Below are positions 4,361 through 60,253 of a DNA stretch of 64,000 nt, piece by piece (position 1 is the first letter of the stretch; every line of letters begins with the position of its first letter). Source of the DNA: Halovenus carboxidivorans (GTDB lineage Archaea; Halobacteriota; Halobacteria; Halobacteriales; Haloarculaceae). The translations under genes were made by a program, and so were the position numbers. The stretch is taken from contig NZ_WUUT01000002.1 of the NCBI RefSeq assembly GCF_009831575.1, forward strand, positions 186,001 through 250,000, given 5' to 3'. Under the pieces are notes generated by a model. That model made no database searches and was not told the DNA's origin. It saw only the letters and a program-made list of their open reading frames with translations.

Positions 4361-5548
4361 ATGAGTTACCGAATCGGTCTCGTCGGCAAGCCCTCGGTCG
4401 GGAAGTCGACGTTTTTCAACGCGGCGACGATAAACGACGTGCCCGAGGGGGCCTATCCCTTCACGACCATCGACCCGAGTCTCGGTGAGGCGTACGTCCG
4501 GACGGACTGTGCCGCCCCGGAGTTCGGCCGAACCTGCCAGCCCTCGGTCGGCAAGTGCGCGGACGGAACGCGGTTCGTGCCGGTCAAACTCGTCGATATC
4601 GCCGGGCTGGTCCCCGGCGCACACGAGGGCCGCGGCCTCGGCAACCAGTTTCTCACCGACCTGAACGAGACGGACGTGCTGGTCCACGTCGTCGACTTCT
4701 CCGGAACGACCGACGCCGAGGGCGAGGCCACCGAGGGACACGACCCCCGCGAAGACATCGACTTCCTCGAGGAGGAACTGGACGCGTGGTATCTCGACAT
4801 CCTCCGGAAGGGGATCAGACGCTACGAGGACAAGGAACTCTCAGATCCCGACCCGGAGGACGTGCTGGGCGAACAGCTCTCTGCGTTCGGGATCAGCCCC
4901 GCAGAGATCAAACAGGTCATCCTCTCGGTCGACCTGCCGGTCGAGCCACCGGCGTGGGACGAGCAGGACCAGCGGACACTCGCTCAGGAGATCCGCAAGC
5001 GCACCAAGCCGATGGTGATCGCGGCGAACAAGATGGACGTGCCGGCGGCCCAGGAGAACTGGGCGGAGATAACCGACGATCCGGCCTACGACCACCTCAC
5101 GTTCGTCCCCGTCTCGGCACACGCCGAGAAGGCGCTCAAAAACGGTGCCGAGCAGGGCGTTCTCGAATACACGCCCGGCAGCGACGAGTTCGAGATCACC
5201 GCCGACCTGCCCAGAGCGAAGAAGACCGGACTGGAACAGATCCGGACGTTCGTCGAGGAGTACGGCGGCACCGGCGTCCAGCAAGCCCTGGAGACCGCCG
5301 TCTTCGACGTGCTGGATCTGAAGGCCGTCTTTCCCGGGTCCGCCTCCGGCGACTGGACGAACGGCCCGTTTCGGGACTGTTTTCTGCTCCCTTCCGACGC
5401 GACCGCCGAGGACTTCGCCTACCACCTGCACAGCGACATCGGAGACGGCTTCCTGCACGGGATCGACTGCCGAAACGACCGACAGGTCGGTGCCGATACG
5501 GTGCTCGACCACCGCGCCGTCGTCGAAGTTGTCTCGACGACTCAGTAG
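4361..5548 (+). CDS. YchF/DRG-type Obg-family GTPase with TGS domain
   Basis: The 395-residue protein begins directly with a P-loop (GLVGKPSVGKSTFFNAAT). It then shows G2/G3 elements (YPFTTIDPSLG, DIAGLVPGAHEGRGLGNQFL) and G4 (NKMD at about residue 227). A helical insert at about 130-200 and a C-terminal TGS domain (about 310-390, LDLKAVFPG to the C-terminus) complete the YchF/OLA1-like architecture. These ribosome-associated P-loop NTPases are universal; bacterial YchF prefers ATP. Cys-rich spacing after the switch region (RTCQPSVGKC) is seen in archaeal members. The gene is monocistronic with its own promoter. Confidence 0.9.
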   Translation: MSYRIGLVGKPSVGKSTFFNAATINDVPEGAYPFTTIDPSLGEAYVRTDCAAPEFGRTCQPSVGKCADGTRFVPVKLVDIAGLVPGAHEGRGLGNQFLTDLNETDVLVHVVDFSGTTDAEGEATEGHDPREDIDFLEEELDAWYLDILRKGIRRYEDKELSDPDPEDVLGEQLSAFGISPAEIKQVILSVDLPVEPPAWDEQDQRTLAQEIRKRTKPMVIAANKMDVPAAQENWAEITDDPAYDHLTFVPVSAHAEKALKNGAEQGVLEYTPGSDEFEITADLPRAKKTGLEQIRTFVEEYGGTGVQQALETAVFDVLDLKAVFPGSASGDWTNGPFRDCFLLPSDATAEDFAYHLHSDIGDGFLHGIDCRNDRQVGADTVLDHRAVVEVVSTTQ

Positions 5549-5638
5549 CGAGCGCCGGAAAGAACCGTTAAGTCGTCGAGTCTCGGCCCCAACCGACCGG
5601 AGAAAGACACTTACCGAACGTGTGACCAGTAACGAGCG

Positions 5639-6064
5639 ATGGAACGACGACAGTTCGTGTTCACGTTGTTGCTCGCGGTTCTCGGCTCCGGCTGTGCCCG
5701 CAGCTCGCTGTCCGACAACGAAGACGGCGACTCGGAGAGTGACGAACGGCCAGACCCGAGTGAGGACATCTTCGTCACCGTGTCGAACCGGCGTTCCCAG
5801 CGGGTGGTCGCCGGTGTTGTCGTGCTGGAAAGCAGGGGCAGGGGTTCCGTCATCACCGAGCGGAGCGTACTGCTCGACCCCGGGGAGTCGACGGCGATAT
5901 ACACGGGAATAACGAGCCCCGGCGATTACCCGTACGAGATCTATCTCGACGGCGAACTGGCGTTCGAGGCCACGTACAACGTCGGGGAGTTCGACGTAGA
6001 GACCGGTTCGAACATCGACATCGGGATAGAGCCCGACGAGTTGGACATCGGTGCAGAGGACTAG
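5639..6064 (+). CDS. Small lipoprotein, function unknown
   Basis: The 141-residue chain starts MERRQFVFTLLLAVLGSGCA: an N-terminal arginine pair, a hydrophobic stretch and a lipobox-like SGC, so the mature protein probably begins at Cys19 and is lipid-anchored outside the cell. A short acidic linker (SDNEDGDSESDERPDPSED) follows. The rest is a beta-rich domain of about 95 residues beginning IFVTVSNRRSQRVVAGVVVL, which resembles Ig-like or carboxypeptidase-regulatory-like folds. It stands alone between ychF and a VOC gene. No catalytic residues are evident. Confidence 0.7.
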   Translation: MERRQFVFTLLLAVLGSGCARSSLSDNEDGDSESDERPDPSEDIFVTVSNRRSQRVVAGVVVLESRGRGSVITERSVLLDPGESTAIYTGITSPGDYPYEIYLDGELAFEATYNVGEFDVETGSNIDIGIEPDELDIGAED

Positions 6065-6145
6065 CTGTCCCGGAGGCCGATCGTTCTGAGACGAGCACAG
6101 CACGCTGACACAACAGTCATTTGCCGCGCGGTAGTACGGCCGGCT

Positions 6146-6832
6146 ATGCTGGATGGACTCCGCTGGCTCGCGCTCGAAGTCAAGTATCTCGACCGGGCAC
6201 AGTCGTTTTACGAGGCGTTTCTGGACCTGGAGGTGCGCTCGGAGAGCGATCACGAGGTGGCCTTCGCGGCCGGCGACACCGACCTGGTCCTCAGGCGACC
6301 GCACTCGGTCCCGCGCGGGGGGTTGCACACCCACTACGCGCTGTCGATCCCTCGCGGCGAGTACGACTCGTGGTACGAGCGACTCGACGAGCGGTTCGAT
6401 CTCGTCGAGCACACCTTCGGGGACTCGAAGTCGCTGTACTTCTACGACACCGAGGTCAACTGCGTCGAACTCGGGCAGTCAGACGTGGCGGGGCCGGGCG
6501 TCGACGGCGTCTTCGAGGTCGTCTTCGAGGTCGAGGATCTCGACCGAGCACAGGCGCTGTACGGAGAGTTGGGCTTCGAGACCGTCGACGAGGGCGACGA
6601 CCGCAAACGCGTCCGGATGACCGCCGGTTCGTTCGACATCGAACTGTGGGAGCCACACCTCGGGCTGGCGGACGCCCGCGGCGGCGTCCACGTCGACGTT
6701 GGAATCGAGGCCGACGACCCCGGAGCGGTCGTCGATTCCGCCCGGGAGCAACTGGCCGCAGTCGAGGAGACAGAGCGGGGGTATCGGCTCCGCGATCCAG
6801 ACGGACACTACCTGACGGTGGTCGAACCGTAG
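6146..6832 (+). CDS. VOC-superfamily (glyoxalase/extradiol dioxygenase-like) protein
   Basis: The 228 residues contain two vicinal-oxygen-chelate modules. Module 1 (about 1-115) starts LRWLALEVKYLDRAQSFYEA; module 2 (about 118-228) starts FEVVFEVEDLDRAQALYGEL and ends RLRDPDGHYLTVVEP, the usual RDPDGH closing strand. VOC proteins bind a divalent metal and act as lyases, isomerases, dioxygenases or antibiotic-binding proteins. The specific activity cannot be read from the sequence. The gene runs in the same direction as mch, which follows 42 bp later; each appears to have its own promoter. Confidence 0.85.
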   Translation: MLDGLRWLALEVKYLDRAQSFYEAFLDLEVRSESDHEVAFAAGDTDLVLRRPHSVPRGGLHTHYALSIPRGEYDSWYERLDERFDLVEHTFGDSKSLYFYDTEVNCVELGQSDVAGPGVDGVFEVVFEVEDLDRAQALYGELGFETVDEGDDRKRVRMTAGSFDIELWEPHLGLADARGGVHVDVGIEADDPGAVVDSAREQLAAVEETERGYRLRDPDGHYLTVVEP

Positions 6833-6874
6833 AAACCCCACGCTTTTCTATCGGCGGGCGCAGAAGTGGGGAAC

Positions 6875-7807
6875 ATGGAGAGTCTCAACAGGATGGCGAC
6901 GGAGTTGGTCGACGAGGCAATCGAGTTCGCGGACGAACTGACCGTCGACGTCCACCAGCTAACGGGCGATTCCGCCGTCCTCGATTTCGGCGTGGAAGCG
7001 CCGGGCGCGATTGAGGCCGGACTGCTGCTCGTCGAGATCCAGACCGCCGGGCTGGCGACCGTTCAGGCCCGAAGCGGAACCGTGGGTGGAACGCCGCGCA
7101 CGCACGTCGAACTCTCGACCGATCAGCCGGCACTGTCGCTGCTCTGTGCCGGAAAAGGGGGCTGGGAACTCGTCACCGACTCCTTCGAGGGGCTGGGAAG
7201 CGGCCCCGCGCGCGCCCTCGTGGCCGAGGAAGACATCTTCGACCGCGTCGGATACGCCGAGTCGTTCGACTTCGCCGTCCTCGCAGTCGAGTCCGACCAG
7301 TTGCCCGACGAGGCAGTCGCCCAGCGGGTTGCCGACCGCACCGGCGTCCCCGAGAGCGGGGTCTTTCTGCCGACCTACGCCGCGGCCAGTATCACCGGGA
7401 GCGTCGTCGGCGCGGCCCGGGCCGCGGAACTGGCCGTCTACCGACTCACCGAACTCGGCTACGACCCGTTGGATGTGCTCTCCGCGACGGGGTCTGCCCC
7501 GGTCGCACCCGTCGCCGGAGACGAATCGACCGCGATGGCGTACACGAACGACGCTGTCATGTACGGCGGCGAAGTCCATCTCGTGGTCGAAGAGCCGTTC
7601 GACCGCTTCGACGAAGTCGCCTCGACCGCCCGCAGTGAGTACGGCGACCCGTTCGCCGACATCTTCGAGGCCGTCGATCACGACTACGCCGAACTCGACC
7701 GCGAACTGTTCGCACCGGCACAGGTGACCGTCGACGTGGTCGGCGGTGAGACCCACACCGTCGGTGAGACCGCCGAGGACGTACTCGTAGAGAGCTACGG
7801 GCTCTGA
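6875..7807 (+). CDS. mch: Methenyltetrahydromethanopterin cyclohydrolase
   Basis: This enzyme interconverts N5,N10-methenyl- and N5-formyl-tetrahydromethanopterin (in haloarchaea perhaps a folate analogue) in C1 metabolism. The 310 residues match the Mch family throughout, with the N-terminal helix MESLNRMATELVDEAIEFAD, the segment TVGGTPRTHVELSTDQPALS and the substrate-loop region DAVMYGGEVHLVVEE. ATG 6875 is preferred over an in-frame GTG at 6866 because a CTTTTCTA box lies about 28 bp before it. A non-methanogenic archaeon keeping Mch is normal for Halobacteria. Confidence 0.93.
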   Translation: MESLNRMATELVDEAIEFADELTVDVHQLTGDSAVLDFGVEAPGAIEAGLLLVEIQTAGLATVQARSGTVGGTPRTHVELSTDQPALSLLCAGKGGWELVTDSFEGLGSGPARALVAEEDIFDRVGYAESFDFAVLAVESDQLPDEAVAQRVADRTGVPESGVFLPTYAAASITGSVVGAARAAELAVYRLTELGYDPLDVLSATGSAPVAPVAGDESTAMAYTNDAVMYGGEVHLVVEEPFDRFDEVASTARSEYGDPFADIFEAVDHDYAELDRELFAPAQVTVDVVGGETHTVGETAEDVLVESYGL

Positions 7808-8027: not shown

Positions 8028-9329
8028 ATGAGCGACGCCGAAGAGCCCGAGCAATCCGGTCTGAGTCGCGAGCAGTACGTCATCGTCGGTTCCGTCATCG
8101 CCAGTACGTTCTTCGTCGGCTTCGGCGGCGGCGTCATCTTTCCGATCCTGCCGAACCTGGGTCAGGTACTCGGCATCTCACCGTTTTTCGTCGGTCTGAT
8201 TCTCAGCGCGAACCGGTTCTCGCGGCTGGTTGCGAACGCTCCGGCGGGCAGCGTCGTCGACCGGGTCGGAACCCGGACACCCTTCATCGTCGGCCTGTTC
8301 ATCCAGGCCGTCTCTACGTTCGGCTACGTCATCGCGTATCTCTCGCCGACTCCGGAGCCGTGGTTCCTGCTCGTCAGGATCCTCTGGGGTGTCGGCAGCG
8401 CACTCGTGTTCGCGACGGCGTACACCATCGCCGCGGACATCAGCCAGAGCGGCTCTCGGGGGACCAGTATGGGACTCATCCGGGGCGGCACCATCTTCGG
8501 CTTTCCCTCCGGACTGGTCGTCGGCGGCGTCGTCAGCGACGTCGCTGACGGTGTCTTCGCGGGGGTTCCCGGTGATGTCGTGGCCTTCATCGTCGCGACG
8601 ATATTCGCGCTGTTTGCGACGCTTCTGGCGTATCTGTTCGTCCCGGAGACCCACGTCGCGAGCGACTCGAACGAGTCGGTCAAACCCTGGGAGATCGACC
8701 GCAGCGCCACGACGCTGACGGTCGGGCTGGTGAACTTCACCATCCTGTTCGGCTACATCGGCGCGCTGTTCTCGACGCTCGTGCTCTTCCTCAACGAGCG
8801 CAATCTCAGCCTCTTCGGCTTCGCCCCGCAGGGCACCTCGGGCATCTTCATGGCGATTACGGTGCTCTCGGCGGCGGTGTTCATGCTCGGCGGCGGCTAC
8901 CTGAGCGACCACCGCGAGTCCCGCGTCCCGACGCTTCTGTTGTTCGTCGGAGTCGCGTCGGTCGGATTCCTTGTGCTTGCGGTCGCGAACTCGGTGCCGG
9001 TGTTGGTGATCGCCTGCATCCTCATCGGAAGCGGCCAGGGCGGAACGAGCGGCCCTCTCGTCGCACTCCTCGCGGACCTCACCCCCGCCGAGAAGATGGG
9101 CCGGGCGTCCGGAACGAACAACGTTCTCGGCGATGTCGGCGGTGGGCTGGGTCCGCTCGTCTCGCTCCCGCTGATCAACCTCGTCGGGTTCACGCCGGTG
9201 TACGCGGCGTGTGCGTTGCTGCCGCTCTCTGCCGGTGTGATCCTCCTCGTTGGGATCAGGTACGAGACCGGACGGCTCTTCCCCGAGACGGACTACATCG
9301 ACGTCTCGACCGAATCCACGGCCGACTGA
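8028..9329 (+). CDS. Major facilitator superfamily transporter, probable drug or metabolite exporter
   Basis: The 433-residue protein has twelve hydrophobic segments and MFS motif A after helix 2 (NAPAGSVVDRVGTRTPFIVG). The central loop (about 205-225) contains the acidic stretch EIDRSATTLTVG, and a second motif-A-like loop (GGGYLSDHRESRVPT) follows helix 8. Overall resemblance is to DHA-type proton antiporters, which expel drugs or small metabolites across the cytoplasmic membrane. The start is the ATG at 8028 (MSDAEEPEQSGLSREQ). The 220-bp region before it carries the inverted repeat at 7907-7924, suggesting control by a ligand-sensing repressor. Confidence 0.86.
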   Translation: MSDAEEPEQSGLSREQYVIVGSVIASTFFVGFGGGVIFPILPNLGQVLGISPFFVGLILSANRFSRLVANAPAGSVVDRVGTRTPFIVGLFIQAVSTFGYVIAYLSPTPEPWFLLVRILWGVGSALVFATAYTIAADISQSGSRGTSMGLIRGGTIFGFPSGLVVGGVVSDVADGVFAGVPGDVVAFIVATIFALFATLLAYLFVPETHVASDSNESVKPWEIDRSATTLTVGLVNFTILFGYIGALFSTLVLFLNERNLSLFGFAPQGTSGIFMAITVLSAAVFMLGGGYLSDHRESRVPTLLLFVGVASVGFLVLAVANSVPVLVIACILIGSGQGGTSGPLVALLADLTPAEKMGRASGTNNVLGDVGGGLGPLVSLPLINLVGFTPVYAACALLPLSAGVILLVGIRYETGRLFPETDYIDVSTESTAD

Positions 9330-9399
9330 CCGGCCGCTGATCGACACTCTCTCGGGATGCGGCACAACAATCAAACCGTGGGAGCACGAATCACCGTCG

Positions 9400-11124
9400 A
9401 TGAAAGCGGGTGATTTCGTCGGCCCAGTGGTCGTCCACGACTCCGGAACGATCCGGTACGGAAACGAGGAGTTCGCGGGGCTGGTCGGTATCGAGAACTC
9501 CGCGGAACTGGCAGGTCACTCGCTTCGCTCGTATCTCTCCGACCCACACTGGCGGTCACTCTCCGAACAGATCGACCGGATTGAGGAGGGGGAACCGGCG
9601 CTCGGGGTGCGGGTCGGCCTCGAAGGGACGAACGGGACTCACAGGGAGGTGATCGCGGTCAGTTCGCCCGTCGAATGGGAGGAGACGCCACAGGTCCAGA
9701 CGACCTTTCTCGACCTCACACAGGGTGAGTTAGCGGCCTCGCTCAGGGAGAACGCGATGCACGAGGCACCGGTCGGCATCACGATTGCGGACGCGACGGC
9801 GGAGGACACCCCGCTGGTGTACGTCAACGACCAGTTCGTCGAGATGACCGGCTACCGGCGCGAGGAGGTGCTCGGTCGGAACTGTCGGTTTCTTCAGGGG
9901 GCGAACACCCGTCCCGAGCCAGTGGCACGGCTGCGCGAAGCGATTGCCGACGAGGAGTCGGTCACAGTCGAACTGCGGAACTACCGGAAGGACGGCTCGC
10001 TGTTCTGGAACCGAGTGAGCATCTCGCCGGTCCGTGACGAGACCGGAACCGTGACACAGTTCCTGGGATTCCAACAGGACATCTCGGACGCGAAGGTGTA
10101 CGAGCGCGAGAAGACGCTGTTCGAGAGCCACGCCGAGGCGTCGGATCAGGTGATGTACGTCACCGACACCGAGGGACGGATCGAGTACGTCAACCCGGCG
10201 TTCGAGGTGACGACCGGCTACGACGCCGACGCGGTGCTCGGAGAGACGCCGGCGCTGTTCTGTACGGACAGCGACGGACCGATCCTGGGTTCGGGTTCAC
10301 CCCCTCGCGGAGAGAGCTACCAGGACGAACGCACGAACACGACGAAGACGGGCGAACTGTACCGCGTTCGTCGAACGGTCGTTCCGATTATCGACGACAG
10401 AGGCGAGACGACACACTACACCGTCATCGAGCGGAGCGTGACCGAAGAACAACTCACGACCCAGGTTCTCGGCGTCCTCGACAGAGTGCTCCGACACAAC
10501 GTCCGCACCGCGGTCAACGTGATCGACGGCTACGCGGAGTATCTGGAGTCCAACGTCGAAGGAGAGAAGCGGGAGGCCGCGACGGCGTCGATTCGGAGGC
10601 GTTCGCGGGAGCTTCGAGAGATCAGCGAGAAAGTGAGCGTCATTCGTCAGCTACTCGAAACCGAAGAGCCGTCACCGCTGGAACTCACACACCTCGACAG
10701 CGTCGTCACCCGATTGCGACGCCAACACCCGAGCGCGGAGATTGACCTCCAGGTTCCGACCGACACGCGCCGTGCAATCGCGAAGGGGAACATGTTCCAG
10801 TGTGCACTGGAGATGGCGGTCGAGCACGCGGTCGAACACAACGACAGCGACCCCGCTGTGGTCGAAATCACGGTTGCTGCCTGTGAGAGCGACAACACTG
10901 TCGAGGTCGAAATTGCCGACAACGGGACCGAAATTCCCGACTCGGAGTGGGAGATCATCGAGGGTGGGGCCGAGACCCCGCTCAGACACACGAGCGGCAT
11001 CGGTCTCTGGGTGATGTACTGGGCGGTCGTGGCACTCGGCGGTGCAGTCGAACGCGAGCGCAACGACCGCACGGGGACGACGCTCACGTTTCAGGTTCCG
11101 CTCGCGGCGACCAGTCCCGACTGA
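9400..11124 (+). CDS. LOV-domain (blue-light type) multi-PAS histidine kinase
   Basis: The 574-residue soluble kinase has a degenerate N-terminal PAS domain (about 1-110), then a LOV-type PAS domain (about 118-232). The latter holds GRNCRFLQG with the photoactive cysteine at about 162, NYRKDG and FWN (Asn 194 and 204) and FLGFQQD (Gln 225), the full set of flavin-contacting residues. A third PAS domain (about 245-350) precedes the phosphoacceptor helix LDRVLRHNVRTAVNV (His about 366). The HATPase part is altered: the N-box Asn is replaced (LEMAVEHAVEHND) and G1 reads ADNGTEIP, but G2 (GIGLWVMYW) is kept. The start is the ATG at 9400. No response regulator is adjacent. Confidence 0.86.
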   Translation: MKAGDFVGPVVVHDSGTIRYGNEEFAGLVGIENSAELAGHSLRSYLSDPHWRSLSEQIDRIEEGEPALGVRVGLEGTNGTHREVIAVSSPVEWEETPQVQTTFLDLTQGELAASLRENAMHEAPVGITIADATAEDTPLVYVNDQFVEMTGYRREEVLGRNCRFLQGANTRPEPVARLREAIADEESVTVELRNYRKDGSLFWNRVSISPVRDETGTVTQFLGFQQDISDAKVYEREKTLFESHAEASDQVMYVTDTEGRIEYVNPAFEVTTGYDADAVLGETPALFCTDSDGPILGSGSPPRGESYQDERTNTTKTGELYRVRRTVVPIIDDRGETTHYTVIERSVTEEQLTTQVLGVLDRVLRHNVRTAVNVIDGYAEYLESNVEGEKREAATASIRRRSRELREISEKVSVIRQLLETEEPSPLELTHLDSVVTRLRRQHPSAEIDLQVPTDTRRAIAKGNMFQCALEMAVEHAVEHNDSDPAVVEITVAACESDNTVEVEIADNGTEIPDSEWEIIEGGAETPLRHTSGIGLWVMYWAVVALGGAVERERNDRTGTTLTFQVPLAATSPD

Positions 11125-55530: not shown

Positions 55531-55869
55531 ATGAAGCAGGCAATCGTCGCGCGTGCAGATCTGGGCATGGGTGAGGGGAAACTCGCCGCGCAGGTGGCTC
55601 ACGCCTCCCTGCAAGCCTACGAGGAAGCGGACGGGGCCGCCCAGCGGGAGTGGAAAGGCGACGGCCAGAAGAAGATCGTCCTCCGGGCCGACAGCGAGGC
55701 CGACCTGTTCGAGATCAACGAGCAGGCCGACGTGGAGGGGCTGCCACACGCCCTGATCCGGGACGCCGGACACACCCAACTCGACCCCGGGACGGCGACC
55801 GCCGTCGCCGTCGGTCCAGCCAGCGACCGCGCCGTCGACGCCGTGACCGGCGACCTCGCTCTGTACTGA
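55531..55869 (+). CDS. pth2: Peptidyl-tRNA hydrolase, archaeal/eukaryotic type (Pth2)
   Basis: Pth2 releases tRNA from stalled peptidyl-tRNA. The 112 residues match the family: [34 protein letters not shown] with the conserved His/Gln region, [20 protein letters not shown] and the C-terminal [20 protein letters not shown]. The length equals the Pth2 norm without an N-terminal membrane anchor. GGCTTTTTG (55499-55507) lies about 28 bp before the start. It converges with the fusion gene below, 3 bp between stops. Confidence 0.95.
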
Positions 55870-55872
55870 CCG

Positions 55873-57798
55873 TCAGTCTGCGGACTCGTACAGCAGCGAT
55901 CCGCCGCTGGTCACGAGATAGCCCGTCCCCGTCAGCGCGACGCCGGTTCGGCTATCCCGGACGAGACCGAGTTCCTTCAGCGAGGCGACGACACTCGCCA
56001 CCCGACCGGTGTTCATATCGACGAGTGCCGGGAGGTTTCGGCCGTCGCCCGCGGAGTGCAGCGCATCCAGCACCTCCCGCTGTTCGTTCGACAGCGAGGC
56101 GTTGCGGGCCTTCCGTAGCTGTCGCTCGTGGTACTCGGTGAGGTACCGCGAGAGGATCTGCTTGTCGACCTCGTCGGTGGGACGGAGTTCCACCGTGACG
56201 ACGTTCGCGTTCACCCGGAGGTGGTGGATCGTCAGCCCCATCTCGTAGCCGACTTCCGACTCCATCGGCTTCTCTTCGAGTCCGACAATCGTCGAGAGCC
56301 GGATCCGAACGGGCAGGCCCTCCGAATCGGGGTCTTCGAGTGTGAGCGTCCTCGGGGTCGTCGAGAGAATCCGCCGCTCGGGTTCGATCTCCTCGGGGTC
56401 TTCGAGCCCTTCGGAGAGGTTCGCGGTGACTGTCTCGACGTCCTCGAGCAACGACGCGAACAGCGTCTCCTGGAACTCCCAGCCGATGTCGCGGGGCAGT
56501 TCGCAGACGACGATCTTCCGGTCGTCGTGTTCGTCGTTGTAGGCGATCCCGACCGTCTCGTCGAAGACACCCTTGAGCGGGTCCGGGACGTATCCCGGGG
56601 CGACGTCGACAATCGAGTCGAAGGGGATCCGGAGCGTGTCGGCGACGCCAGTCTGGTCGCGCGAGACGAGCACGACCTCGCGCTGTCCGAGCACGACCGA
56701 TCCGCCAGTGGGGCGGCCGCTCTCGATCCCCTGACCGGCGAACCGCGTCGAGACCGACACCTGAACCGGCGAGGTGACCTGATCGCGGTACTCCGTCGCC
56801 GTCTCCTCGGACCCGACCCCGGCCTCGCCGGTTTCGGCGTACTGGTGGCGCTGGGACTCGCGTCTCCGAACCCAGTCCGACAGCGACGCGCTGACCAGTT
56901 GTGAGCCGCTGTCGGCCGCCAGTTCGCGGAGGTCGATCCGGGCGGGATCGAAGGTGCTGTCGGCGGGCGGTTCGATCGGCCGCGGGTTGCGCCCGAGCGT
57001 GTCGACCTCCTCGGCGCGGTTGCCGCGCCAGCGAGCGTCGTACTCGGTGGGGTCGAACGGTTCGCGCTCGAAGGGGTTGGGATCGCAGACCAGCCGGTAC
57101 TGCGAGTTCTCACCGCAGATGTCCGGTGCGGCGTCCGGACCGAGCGAGCGGTACATGTACTCCCGGAGTTCGCCGCCCCCGACGCGGGCGAACGCACCGG
57201 CGGTCTCCTCGTCGATTGCGAGGAGGTCTGCCAGCCGACGCGGGCCGAAGCCAGCCGTCGCGAGAAACTCCGCGGCCGAGGCACGGAGCGCCTCGGTGCT
57301 GATCGCCTCGGTGTCCAGTTCCCAGGCGTTCTCGGCGGCTTCGGTGACGATCCGTTCGATCCCCGCAACGTCGGTATCGAGATAGGGCCGCTCGCCGAGG
57401 ACGCCGTAGAGCGCGGCGGTCAGCCGTCGCGACCAGCCGAACGGGATCGTTCGCGCTCCGTCGGCCCCGTCGGGCGGGGACCAGCAGGTCTCCGCGACAA
57501 TCTCCTCGACGCTGCGGTCGCTTCCGGCCTCGGTTTTGCGCCGCCGGGCAGTCGCGAAACAGTACCGACACGCGCAGGGGTCCCGGGCGGGGACGTGTAC
57601 CTCCCCGCGCTCCCAGTCTACCCAGTCCTCGTGGAGGTGAGTGATCTCCTCGGGGCGGAGTCCGAGTCGTCCCATCAACAGGAGTACGTAACAGGCGTCG
57701 CGTCGACGAGTTTCGTCTTCGATCGTCAGCCCGCCGAGATAGAGGCTATACAGCCCCTCAGCAGAGAGCGCCTCCGCGGGCGACAGCGATGAGGCCAT
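55873..57798 (-). CDS. Inactivated tyrosine-integrase domain fused to a CheF-like/winged-helix domain
   Basis: The 641-residue protein has two parts. Residues about 1-225 follow haloarchaeal tyrosine integrases: RRDACYVLLLMGRLGLRPEE (Arg48), a C-x-C-x2-C cluster in RDPCACRYC, ARTIPFGW and TEALRASAAEFLATAGFGPR (Arg172). The other active-site residues are replaced: the His before Arg172 is Glu169, the Tyr position is Phe203, and the Lys and His/Trp are missing. Residues about 340-560 match the neighbouring CheF-like protein (DTLRIPFDSIVDVAPGYVPD, IRLSTIVGLEEKPMESEVGY). Residues 570-641 form a winged helix (LSNEQREVLDALHSAGDGRN). The linker (225-340) has a second Cys pair. It is probably a DNA-binding regulator; function unknown. 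Confidence 0.75.
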   Translation of the reverse strand: MASSLSPAEALSAEGLYSLYLGGLTIEDETRRRDACYVLLLMGRLGLRPEEITHLHEDWVDWERGEVHVPARDPCACRYCFATARRRKTEAGSDRSVEEIVAETCWSPPDGADGARTIPFGWSRRLTAALYGVLGERPYLDTDVAGIERIVTEAAENAWELDTEAISTEALRASAAEFLATAGFGPRRLADLLAIDEETAGAFARVGGGELREYMYRSLGPDAAPDICGENSQYRLVCDPNPFEREPFDPTEYDARWRGNRAEEVDTLGRNPRPIEPPADSTFDPARIDLRELAADSGSQLVSASLSDWVRRRESQRHQYAETGEAGVGSEETATEYRDQVTSPVQVSVSTRFAGQGIESGRPTGGSVVLGQREVVLVSRDQTGVADTLRIPFDSIVDVAPGYVPDPLKGVFDETVGIAYNDEHDDRKIVVCELPRDIGWEFQETLFASLLEDVETVTANLSEGLEDPEEIEPERRILSTTPRTLTLEDPDSEGLPVRIRLSTIVGLEEKPMESEVGYEMGLTIHHLRVNANVVTVELRPTDEVDKQILSRYLTEYHERQLRKARNASLSNEQREVLDALHSAGDGRNLPALVDMNTGRVASVVASLKELGLVRDSRTGVALTGTGYLVTSGGSLLYESAD

Positions 57799-57912
57799 TG
57801 GTGGCAGTGGGACCTGCCAGAATGAAAATCTATCCCTGCCGGCCGAGCACCCGTTCTCTCGGCGGCGAAAACCGGCGAGACGTATTTGTTCGAGATCGTT
57901 CTACTCGTAAAT
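57799..57912. promoter_or_regulatory. Divergent promoter region of the integrase-CheF fusion and small protein genes
   Basis: A GTATTTG box (57882-57888) lies about 28 bp before the 57913 start. On the minus strand AGATTTTC (57831-57824) lies about 29 bp before the fusion gene. The 114-bp space links expression of the two genes. Confidence 0.4.
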
Positions 57913-58188
57913 ATGGCAGACGAGACAGTTCGGGTCTGGCTGGTCGAGCGGACCTACTCGGACGACGAGCAGAACCTGATCATCCTCACGTACGCGACGC
58001 CCGACGGGGAGCAGTATTTCCGCAAGGAGCGAGCGCTGACCTCCTACACCGACACGCGCGGGACGACCGCGGCAGTCGACGCCGACCCCGAGAATCTCGG
58101 CGCGGTCGATGACGAGCGACTCCGACGGCGGTACGCCGCCGAGGCCGAGCGGATGGCCAGCGTCCACGACCCCGACGACGAGATCTGA
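57913..58188 (+). CDS. Small conserved protein between two CheF-like genes
   Basis: A 91-residue acidic protein, MADETVRVWLVERTYSDDEQ at the start, then LIILTYATPDGEQYFRKERA and an Arg/Glu-rich helix DERLRRRYAAEAERMASV. The first 45 residues look like a small beta-meander and the rest a helix. No named family is recognised. It is divergent from the fusion gene and convergent with the CheF-like gene (31 bp between stops). A TATA-like box supports the start at 57913 over an in-frame one at 57886. Confidence 0.6.
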   Translation: MADETVRVWLVERTYSDDEQNLIILTYATPDGEQYFRKERALTSYTDTRGTTAAVDADPENLGAVDDERLRRRYAAEAERMASVHDPDDEI

Positions 58189-58219
58189 CGACCGCAGCCG
58201 AGAATTGGACGGCCTCGGA

Positions 58220-59146
58220 TCAGATCATCTCGTGGGTGAACAGCATATGCCCCGTCTGTGTGAGTTCGAGTTTCGTTCCGGTTTCCTTGACCAGACCCCG
58301 CTGTTTGAGCGTCTCGAGAATCGTTGCGAGTTCCTCCGGTGTCTTGTCGAGAGCCGCGATCAGGGCCCGGTCGCGGCCGTCGTGAGAGTTCTGGAGAGCC
58401 CGTAGTACGTCCTCCTGGTCCGGATTCAGCGTGAGCCGCTTGATCTTCTCGACGCGGCGGTTGTACTCCCACATCAGGATCCGGCGAACCAGCGTGTGCT
58501 CGCGGTCCGAAACGAGCCGTATCTCCGTCGTCAACGGCGGCCCGATGAGTTGGAGATACCGAACCGACAGCGCCGGGACGTGCTCGCCTTCGTAGTACAT
58601 CTGTACGTCTTCGAGGTGGATGATCGAGGAGAACTTGATCGTCGTCCCCGTCCCTCGGTCCCCCGTCCCGCCGAATTCGAGTTCGTAGGGGTGGGCATAC
58701 AGCGTCTCGACCTCCGGTTCCTCGTCGGTCTCCTGTTGGCCCCGCTCGACCGGGTGGGCAATCGCCGCCGGAACGCCGTCGAGGATCGCAGAGAGCAGCC
58801 CCGTCAGAAACCGGCGAGTCGACATCTCGATCGGTTCGATAATGAGGATCCCTTTGTTCCGCGAGCCAGCGTACGAGAACATGACACTGGTATCGAAGAC
58901 ATCACTGTAGGCCTGCGGGGCGTATCCGGGTGCGATATCAGTCAGTGAATCGAGATCCAACTCGATGCTGGCGTCGCCGCTTTCGATGACGAACCGGTCG
59001 GTGCCGAGCGTGATCCGTCCGCTCGTGGGTTCGTGTTCGGAACTGCTCTCGACGACGAACGCGATGTCCGCCGAGATTACCGGCTTCTCGACGGTACCGC
59101 CGTCTGCCCGGATGGCCTGCTCGTCTCCCGAACCCACCTCACGCAT
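58220..59146 (-). CDS. CheF-family (archaellar adaptor-like) protein
   Basis: The 308-residue protein follows CheF-arch (formerly DUF439): GRITLGTDRFVIESGDASIE, LDLDSLTDIAPGYAPQAYSD, GILIIEPIEMSTRRFLTGLL, ILDGVPAAIAHPVERG and a second split domain through VRRILMWEYNRRVE. The C-terminus is a winged helix (NPDQEDVLRALQNSHDGRDR, ETLKQRGLVKETGTKLEL). CheF proteins connect the Che system to the archaellum. No che or arl gene is in this window, so an orphan or a different role is likely. AATTTTAC (minus strand, 59177-59170) sits 28 bp before the ATG at 59146. Confidence 0.68.
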   Translation of the reverse strand: MREVGSGDEQAIRADGGTVEKPVISADIAFVVESSSEHEPTSGRITLGTDRFVIESGDASIELDLDSLTDIAPGYAPQAYSDVFDTSVMFSYAGSRNKGILIIEPIEMSTRRFLTGLLSAILDGVPAAIAHPVERGQQETDEEPEVETLYAHPYELEFGGTGDRGTGTTIKFSSIIHLEDVQMYYEGEHVPALSVRYLQLIGPPLTTEIRLVSDREHTLVRRILMWEYNRRVEKIKRLTLNPDQEDVLRALQNSHDGRDRALIAALDKTPEELATILETLKQRGLVKETGTKLELTQTGHMLFTHEMI

Positions 59147-59512
59147 AGCTTGGCGATTCACACCCGGTCGTAAAATTCCCACCTATAGATATCACGTTTG
59201 ATAATTGGAGGGGAATCAGGCGGTTCGTGAGACAGACGCGCCCGCGAGCGCCAGTTGTCGGGGACGGAGACGGCCGATATCGAGGGAACGAACCTCCGAG
59301 AAATCGCCCGAACGAAGCGCGAAGAGCGGTATTTTCCGGTGGCAGAAGGGCTTTACTTCCAAGTCACCAACCGTCTAATAGCGGTTATACCCCCTTTCAG
59401 GCGCCTCTTCGGGATATCGTGTCGTTGCGGTTGGTGCGTATGCTACCGCAAAGCACCAATTTATATACGAGAGGCACTAACGAAAGGTAAACACAACCAG
59501 TGTGAATATCCA
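59147..59512. promoter_or_regulatory. Intergenic region with psmA promoter
   Basis: This 366-bp space contains the CheF-gene promoter at its left end and, at 59460-59467, TTTATATA, a strong TATA box about 49 bp before the psmA ATG, implying a leader of about 20-25 nt. An AACCG/CGGTT dyad with an 8-nt loop lies at 59371-59388. Nothing else convincing is seen; the open frame running through it has no family features. Confidence 0.5.
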
Positions 59513-60253
59513 ATGCAAGGAAACCAACAACAGCAAGCCTACGACAGAGGAATAACGATCTTCTCGCCGGACGGTCGGCTCTACCAGGTCGAGTACGCCC
59601 GCGAGGCGGTCAAGCGGGGCAGCGCGAGCGTCGGTATCAGGACGGCGGACGGAGTCGTTCTCGCGGCGGACCGACAGACTCGCTCGCCGCTGATCGAGGA
59701 GGAGAGCATCGAGAAGATCCACGAGGCGGACGAACACGCCGGGATTGCGAGCGCGGGTCACGTCGCAGACGCGCGCCAGCTCGTCGACTTCGCTCGCCGC
59801 CAGTCTCAGGTCGAGCGTCTGCGCTACGACGAGCCGATCGGGATCGAGACGCTGACCAAACGGACGACCGATCACATCCAGCAGTACACCCAGACGGGCG
59901 GCGCGCGGCCGTTCGGTGTCGCGCTGCTGATCGGTGGTATCGAGGACGGCGAGCCCCGGCTGTTCGAGGCCGACCCCTCGGGCACGCCCTACGAGTGGCA
60001 GGCAGTCGCCATCGGCGGCGGCCGCGAGGACATTCAGGACTACCTGGAAGAGGAGTACACGCCCGAGATGGATCTCGACGGCGGCGTGACCCTGGCGCTT
60101 GAGGCGCTCGCAGAGGGCACCGACGAGCTCGACGCCGAGAGCGTCGACATCGCGACCGTCGACACGGAGTCCGAACAACTACAGTCACTCTCCGGCGAGG
60201 AAGTGACCGACTACGCGGCCGAGGCCGACCTCGGAGGTGAAGACGATGAATGA
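59513..60253 (+). CDS. psmA: Proteasome alpha subunit
   Basis: The 246-residue subunit forms the outer rings of the 20S core and the gate for substrates. It has the alpha-type N-terminus YDRGITIFSPDGRLYQVEYA (gate helix H0 and the YDR motif), VLAADRQTRSPLIEEESIEK and LYQVEYAREAVKRGSASVGI. No catalytic Thr is present, as expected. The acidic tail is haloarchaeal. Start choice: MQGNQQQQAYDRG begins at the family start; the frame is open upstream but lacks family features. It overlaps psmB by 8 bp. Confidence 0.96.
   Translation: MQGNQQQQAYDRGITIFSPDGRLYQVEYAREAVKRGSASVGIRTADGVVLAADRQTRSPLIEEESIEKIHEADEHAGIASAGHVADARQLVDFARRQSQVERLRYDEPIGIETLTKRTTDHIQQYTQTGGARPFGVALLIGGIEDGEPRLFEADPSGTPYEWQAVAIGGGREDIQDYLEEEYTPEMDLDGGVTLALEALAEGTDELDAESVDIATVDTESEQLQSLSGEEVTDYAAEADLGGEDDE
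60233..60240 (+). promoter_or_regulatory. Shine-Dalgarno sequence deciding the psmB start
   Basis: GGAGGTGA lies 5 bases before the ATG at 60246, inside the end of psmA. It is the best ribosome binding site in the window and favours 60246 over the in-frame ATG at 60237. Confidence 0.7.

Follow-up and report, generated by a model that had tools for sequence, protein, structure and literature searches.

To our knowledge, CheF has been described only as an adaptor that links phosphorylated CheY (CheY-P) to the archaellum motor. Members of the family (PF04283, DUF439; structures 7ovp and 7od9) combine two PH-like domains with a winged-helix C-terminal domain (CTD); the CTD binds CheY-P, and in M. 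maripaludis the C-terminal carboxylate of CheF reaches the phosphorylation site (available passages of PMC9126983). The cheF gene generally lies in or by the che/arl region, with exceptions in Haloarcula marismortui, and the second haloarchaeal homologue, CheF2, is encoded in che regions as a separate protein (available passages of PMC2666748). A further point of comparison is MrpR of Bacillus phage SPbeta, which has a recombinase fold but no longer recombines, serving instead as a repressor that binds DNA (excerpts of PMC10516654). Here we describe, in a stretch of 64,000 nucleotides from Halovenus carboxidivorans (the window: RefSeq assembly GCF_009831575.1, contig NZ_WUUT01000002.1, positions 186,001 to 250,000), a gene, P0001, that joins a recombinase-like domain to a CheF module. 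It is one of three genes that a preliminary description had picked out between pth2 and psmA, and the three are indeed there: the fusion of 641 amino acids, a gene for 91 amino acids on the opposite strand (P0003) and a CheF-like gene for 308 amino acids (P0002). We read the fusion as a non-catalytic DNA-binding regulator with a CheF signal-receiving module, not as a recombinase, and give this reading a probability of roughly 0.48. The fusion and its parts are as follows.

55873-57798, minus strand: pseudo-integrase-CheF fusion P0001, open frame of 641 amino acids (PF04283, 43.7 bits)
57181-57777, minus strand: P0001 residues 8-206, predicted tyrosine-recombinase catalytic-domain fold (VIA; catalytic columns)
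55906-56769, minus strand: P0001 residues 344-631, predicted CheF module of two PH-like domains and a winged-helix CTD (VIA, Foldseek)
55876-55926, minus strand: altered C-terminal tail of P0001, YLVTSGGSLLYESAD, replacing a CheF2-type ...VNxxLEDVNx ending

The integrase half scores 16.2 bits against PF00589, under the cut-off of 27.1, and its assignment comes from a predicted model of P0001 (mean predicted local distance difference test score, pLDDT, 82; predicted template modelling score, pTM, 0.52), in which the placing of the domains relative to each other is untrustworthy because of the pTM. In this model, residues ~8-206 match the Tn1549 integrase 6en2 with a VIA Z of 13.9 and the archaeal Xer protein 4a8e with 12.2, and Z values of 12-14 to several recombinases over residues 8-206 point to the fold of a recombinase catalytic domain. 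The catalytic columns were read from an alignment of 13 fusions with 20 stand-alone integrase relatives (L177, which is the window copy again, and L104, L198 and L095, which are of other kinds, were left out of the counts). Catalytic Lys and Trp are present in none of the 13 fusions and in all 20 stand-alone integrases, His in 0/13 versus 19/20, and Tyr in 3/13 versus 20/20; Arg-I is found in 6 of 12 readable fusions (the column is a gap in the partial fusion L150) and Arg-II in 10 of 13, versus all 20 integrases in both cases. Arg-I and Arg-II remain in the window copy; Lys, His, Trp and Tyr are gone, with Phe in place of Tyr, so that it lacks the set that marks a tyrosine recombinase (Arg, Lys, His, Arg, His/Trp, Tyr). 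Two Halosimplex copies, inspected by eye for both catalytic residues and tails and kept out of the counts for the 13 fusions, are both without Lys, Trp and Tyr, and one keeps His. Thus, judged by its residues, the integrase half is no enzyme: catalysis has been lost and the predicted fold kept. The haloarchaeal tyrosine recombinases of 220-235 amino acids and their relatives of 480 (L075, L076) have the same domain (29-54% identity in matched stretches), but unlike in the fusions their catalytic residues (Arg, Lys, His, Arg, Trp, Tyr) are in place, apart from a missing His in one of the 20. Intact integrases of ~480 amino acids close to the fusions' integrase half bear an unrelated hydrophobic C-terminal end (L075, L076, L079, L106, L107, L193), and in L106 and L107 a very long frame (~1,200 amino acids) lies upstream of them.

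Between the window and its congener G269, the ratio of nonsynonymous to synonymous substitution rates (dN/dS) is ~0.13 for the integrase half, 0.10 for the CheF half and about 0.13 for the whole of P0001, versus 0.13 for the truD control, values that are rough because dS is near 1. The comparison of G148 with G372 gave weaker constraint, with an overall ratio of nonsynonymous to synonymous differences per site (pN/pS) of 0.55. By these ratios both halves of the fusion are under purifying selection, and since the integrase half has lost catalysis yet evolves like a housekeeping gene, it appears to have another task. Three arginines (44, 116 and 125) are invariant across fusions and active integrases, and a recombinase fold stripped of its catalytic residues fits a role in DNA binding rather than one in motor control. 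Like MrpR, the fusion combines lost catalytic residues with a retained fold; unlike it, MrpR is a bacterial phage repressor without CheF or any other signalling module, and its N-terminal core-binding domain has no counterpart in the fusion. No integrase-CheF fusion turned up among the open PubMed Central papers listed for CheF, CheF2, DUF439, inactive recombinases or CheY and transcription.

Both P0001 and P0002 pass the PF04283 (CheF-arch) cut-off of 25. Residues 345-618 of the P0001 model match CheF 7ovp with a VIA Z of 14.7 (root-mean-square deviation 8.5 over 261 residues), the Foldseek E-value for the CheF half is 8.5e-10, and the model has the two PH-like domains and the winged-helix CTD of the family. 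The C-terminal winged helix that the preliminary description had proposed is likewise recovered for the fusion, with residues 568-634 of the model matching MarR-type winged helices (Z 10-12). The whole CheF half therefore aligns with CheF, from which the fusion differs by an added N-terminal recombinase domain and linker (~340 residues), by a sequence that resembles the crystallised CheF less than it does the other haloarchaeal type, by a replaced tail in the source genus and by a position outside the che region. The 50-row tree, for which most rows were taken from a set of 84 and the own-genome copy C1:581913 was left out, unites P0002 with all of the fusion CheF halves in a single clade (support 100/98). 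This clade shares its side of the tree with the own-genome copy C5:215620, apart from the group closest to the crystallised CheF. We infer from the description of second haloarchaeal homologues in the available passages of PMC2666748, and not from a sequence comparison with OE2404R, that this is the side of CheF2 (OE2404R-like), with which most fusions also have the VNxxLEDVNx-type tail in common, CheF2 itself being a stand-alone protein.

The tail is where the copies part. Stand-alone CheF2-type rows have 13 residues past the LTxxG motif in 51 of 51 cases, a count in which only the length is informative because the class is defined by its ending, and many of the rows are near-copies of one another. 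Nine of the 13 fusions and both Halosimplex copies (11/15) retain a CheF2-type tail, which is lost in the fusions of the window, G269, G256 and G002, that is, in the source genus and one other lineage; the tail of P0002 is four residues short. With the CheF2-type tail absent from both window proteins, binding of CheY-P by their CTDs is doubtful.

A profile of the integrase half was searched over 391 Halobacteria genomes, in which fusions scored at least 339 bits and other integrases at most 173, with the divergent fusion of G002 at 131 bits. The fusion occurs in 11 of these genomes (the window genome G000, G256, G148, G068, G173, G123, G137, G372, G234, G418 and G002), and with those of G269, G216 and the two Halosimplex copies there are 15 full copies in all. 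Named carriers are Halohasta salina GSL13, Halosimplex salinum YPL4 and Halosimplex aquaticum XZYJT29; among named close relatives a search with the single protein gave none and an alignment-based search gave nine loci. P0001 is 79% identical to the fusion of the congener G269 and 68% to that of the congener G256. The G068 fusion consists of two frames (L098:7507-8385 and 8382-9638) overlapping by four bases, which may be a sequencing error or a real two-subunit form. By eye, a shortened remnant of the fusion adjoins ffh in L249 (~6001-6429; metagenome-assembled genome QS_4_69_31), a position that holds a full fusion in Halosimplex salinum, and a frame with a response-regulator-receiver-like start (L103:12502-14406) lies ~3 kb from the divergent fusion of G002.

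Under the reading as a DNA-binding regulator, the dead recombinase domain would bind DNA at a specific site and the winged-helix end would dimerise as that of CheF does. In most lineages CheY-P would dock on the CheF end via the retained C-terminal tail, and chemotaxis signalling would thereby alter DNA binding and then transcription or local chromosome state. In the source genus, CheY-P control has probably been lost or changed because the tail is replaced, and P0002 would be expected to pair with the fusion via its winged-helix end and tune it. Binding of DNA and of CheY by the fusion are both predictions made from sequence.

The fusion stands among the following features of the window.

55531-55869, plus strand: pth2, left flank (PF01981)
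57799-57912, no strand: 114-bp spacer with the divergent starts of the fusion and the small gene (sequence)
57913-58188, plus strand: P0003, conserved haloarchaeal protein of 91 amino acids (open frame)
58220-59146, minus strand: P0002, stand-alone CheF-like protein of 308 amino acids (PF04283, 69.3 bits; alternative GTG start at 59182)
59513-60253, plus strand: psmA, right flank (PF00227, PF10584; the scan began at 59510 and the start codon was set by frame counting)

The preliminary description had taken the spacer for a shared divergent promoter and had suggested joint control. The spacer serves the fusion and the small gene only, each start being preceded at ~26-36 bp by an AT-rich TATA-like stretch (by eye; a comparable stretch precedes the fusion start in G269), and the start of P0002 lies on the far side of its gene, divergent from psmA; support for joint control stops at the pair of divergent genes. 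In the window part of contig C2 there are no CheW and no ArlD/E domains, so the earlier statement that the window holds no che, arl or receptor genes stands for these, methyl-accepting receptors not having been scanned for; P0001 and P0002 are the only CheF copies in this part and lie, unlike typical cheF genes, away from any che/arl region. The rest of the genome, all outside the window, has four ArlD/E matches, three CheW matches and five further CheF genes (168-226 bits; contigs C1, C3 and C5). These ordinary copies are CheF1-type at C5:216733, C1:580964 and C1:581913 and CheF2-type at C5:215620, and that at C3:276730 falls on the CheF2 side.

The family's genomes do not keep the three genes together. 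pth2 is present in all 57 sampled genomes of the family; 11 of 18 regions read have pth2 and psmA together without the fusion (L158-L163, L165, L166, L169, L170 and L172, with ~1.4 kb between the two matches in L165), and the remaining seven have no psmA match beside pth2. Among the regions compared, only the window, G269 and G256 have the fusion at this spot. The gene order is pth2, fusion, small gene, psmA in G269 and pth2, a frame of 124 amino acids, fusion, psmA in G256, where the small-gene copy is on a different contig from the fusion; a stand-alone CheF is absent from the spot in both. Fusion loci agree within the genera compared and differ between genera, and those mapped in other genera have no small-gene relative, no pth2 and no psmA. 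Since neither congener has a stand-alone CheF there and G256 also lacks the small gene, the trio is a local assembly, and the idea of a conserved unit is rejected. The preliminary description had named an unconserved neighbourhood together with CheF-like proteins that are not each other's closest kin as an outcome that would speak against it; the neighbourhood is indeed not conserved, but the two proteins are kin. An integrating element with att sites was also considered for the window locus and rejected, as there were no convincing flanking repeats and no tRNA. In other genomes the dCTP deaminase gene is split by an intein-sized insert (L147:9863-11905 in G256, L148 ~5160-7385 in G269 and L160:9434-11458 in G177), in G256 with matches to intein splicing, LAGLIDADG and helix-turn-helix domains; the window dcd gene is uninterrupted.

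The kinship of the two CheF-like proteins, proposed earlier, is borne out by the tree, in which P0002, on a long branch of 1.39, is sister to the fusions of the window, G269 and G256 (100/97). An approximately unbiased (AU) test did not reject a fusion clade excluding P0002 (p 0.077), for which reason its nesting there depends on branch support. In a search of 146 genomes of the family, P0002 has, itself aside, no relative above 31% identity, and no solved structural relatives were found by sequence at E-values up to 1. The most likely origin of P0002 is a lineage-specific copy of the fusion from which the integrase half was lost. A role in defence was rejected, PADLOC giving weak matches in the winged-helix region of P0002.

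P0003 has a distribution of its own. It occurs in 188 of 194 Halobacteria genomes (E up to 0.001) and matches 45 plasmid records and no phage records; a second copy in the same genome is 49% identical and, used as the query, hit 32 of 40 nearby genomes, a count that takes in proteins of the first kind. P0003 has no Pfam, NCBIfam or PADLOC match (scattered weak Pfam matches occur among 28 members), and PHROG 34098, of unknown function, is the family's only curated entry. In the predicted model a single helix accompanies a small beta-barrel (pLDDT 86); no fold is claimed because the best matches, at a Foldseek E-value of 0.18 and a VIA Z of 3.3, are not confident. The family has two subfamilies, and on several plasmids a relative lies near a long heavy-metal P-type ATPase-like frame (by eye in two, L116 ~7580 and L117 ~7562). 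The small gene, earlier counted as part of a chemotaxis-derived system, is near-universal in haloarchaea independently of the fusion and is an unrelated neighbour of it. A viral origin was rejected, with one viral contig holding a weakly similar integrase (26%) and the small protein in none of 10 candidate stretches; the PHROG match runs counter to this rejection.

Several points weigh against a DNA-binding regulator. The CheY-P step depends on a tail that the window fusion and that of G002 no longer have; no neighbours are common to fusion loci of different genera and no target genes are indicated; the integrase half is more acidic in the fusions than in active integrases (net charge per residue -0.046 vs -0.011; it is less acidic than most neighbouring proteins); and deletion of CheF2 in Halobacterium salinarum had a minimal phenotype (available passages of PMC2666748). 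In favour of the regulator, ArlD/E and CheW domains occur in all 13 fusion genomes searched, a count taken over fusion genomes only. The same 13/13 would suit a CheF2-like taxis adaptor whose dead integrase half is a protein-binding scaffold and which acts at the archaellar motor or chemotaxis array and not on DNA, as would the CheF2-type tail kept in most fusions and the interaction of H. salinarum CheF2 with CheY and CheC2 reported in the available text of PMC3579733. We hold such an adaptor, the main rival, to be unlikely, if worth taking seriously: no che or arl genes lie near any fusion locus read (gene starts by eye; the receiver-like frame near the G002 fusion aside), four copies are without the tail, and a recombinase domain would be an unlikely choice of scaffold.

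A history as a decaying or selfish relic, with a mobile integrase gene capturing a cheF copy and drifting without function, would account for the sparse spread (11/391 genomes), the different locus in each genus, the loss of catalysis, the broken remnant in L249 and the split G068 fusion, but most full copies are long open frames, the position is conserved within the genus, the window copy has neither convincing flanking repeats nor a tRNA, and dN/dS of ~0.1 in both halves, like truD, already disfavours drift; we regard it as improbable. Slimmer still are the chances that the three genes form a functional unit, in which a regulator might work with a modulator and a small effector. The fusion and the small gene do lie side by side and divergent in both the window and G269, and P0002 is kin of the fusion, but the G256 locus has neither the small gene, which lies elsewhere, nor P0002, P0002 has no close relative among the 146 family genomes, and the small protein is near-universal without the fusion. 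A working site-specific recombinase under chemotaxis control, acting as a phase-variation switch, is barely conceivable: for all its recombinase fold, the two arginines of the window copy and the Tyr of three fusions, the catalytic set is complete in no fusion, none of the 13 has Lys or Trp, and Tyr is replaced by Phe in the window copy. The earlier suggestion that the locus acts in transcription rather than motility is thus partly supported, by the non-catalytic recombinase fold and the loss of the tail in both window copies, and not by the trio as a unit or by joint control.

The join of CheF with a dead recombinase is a testable case of chemotaxis machinery used away from the motor, and the named isolates that carry it make tests on isolates possible. 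It is a tentative possibility, less secure than the DNA-binding regulator itself, that in several haloarchaeal lineages a dead tyrosine recombinase has become the DNA-reading half of a CheY-P-responsive regulator, directing chemotaxis output to the chromosome and not the motor, and that in the source genus this regulator has parted from CheY and acquired a truncated partner derived from the regulator's CheF half. If the fusion is such a regulator, it would be another example, beside MrpR, of a recombinase turned regulator.

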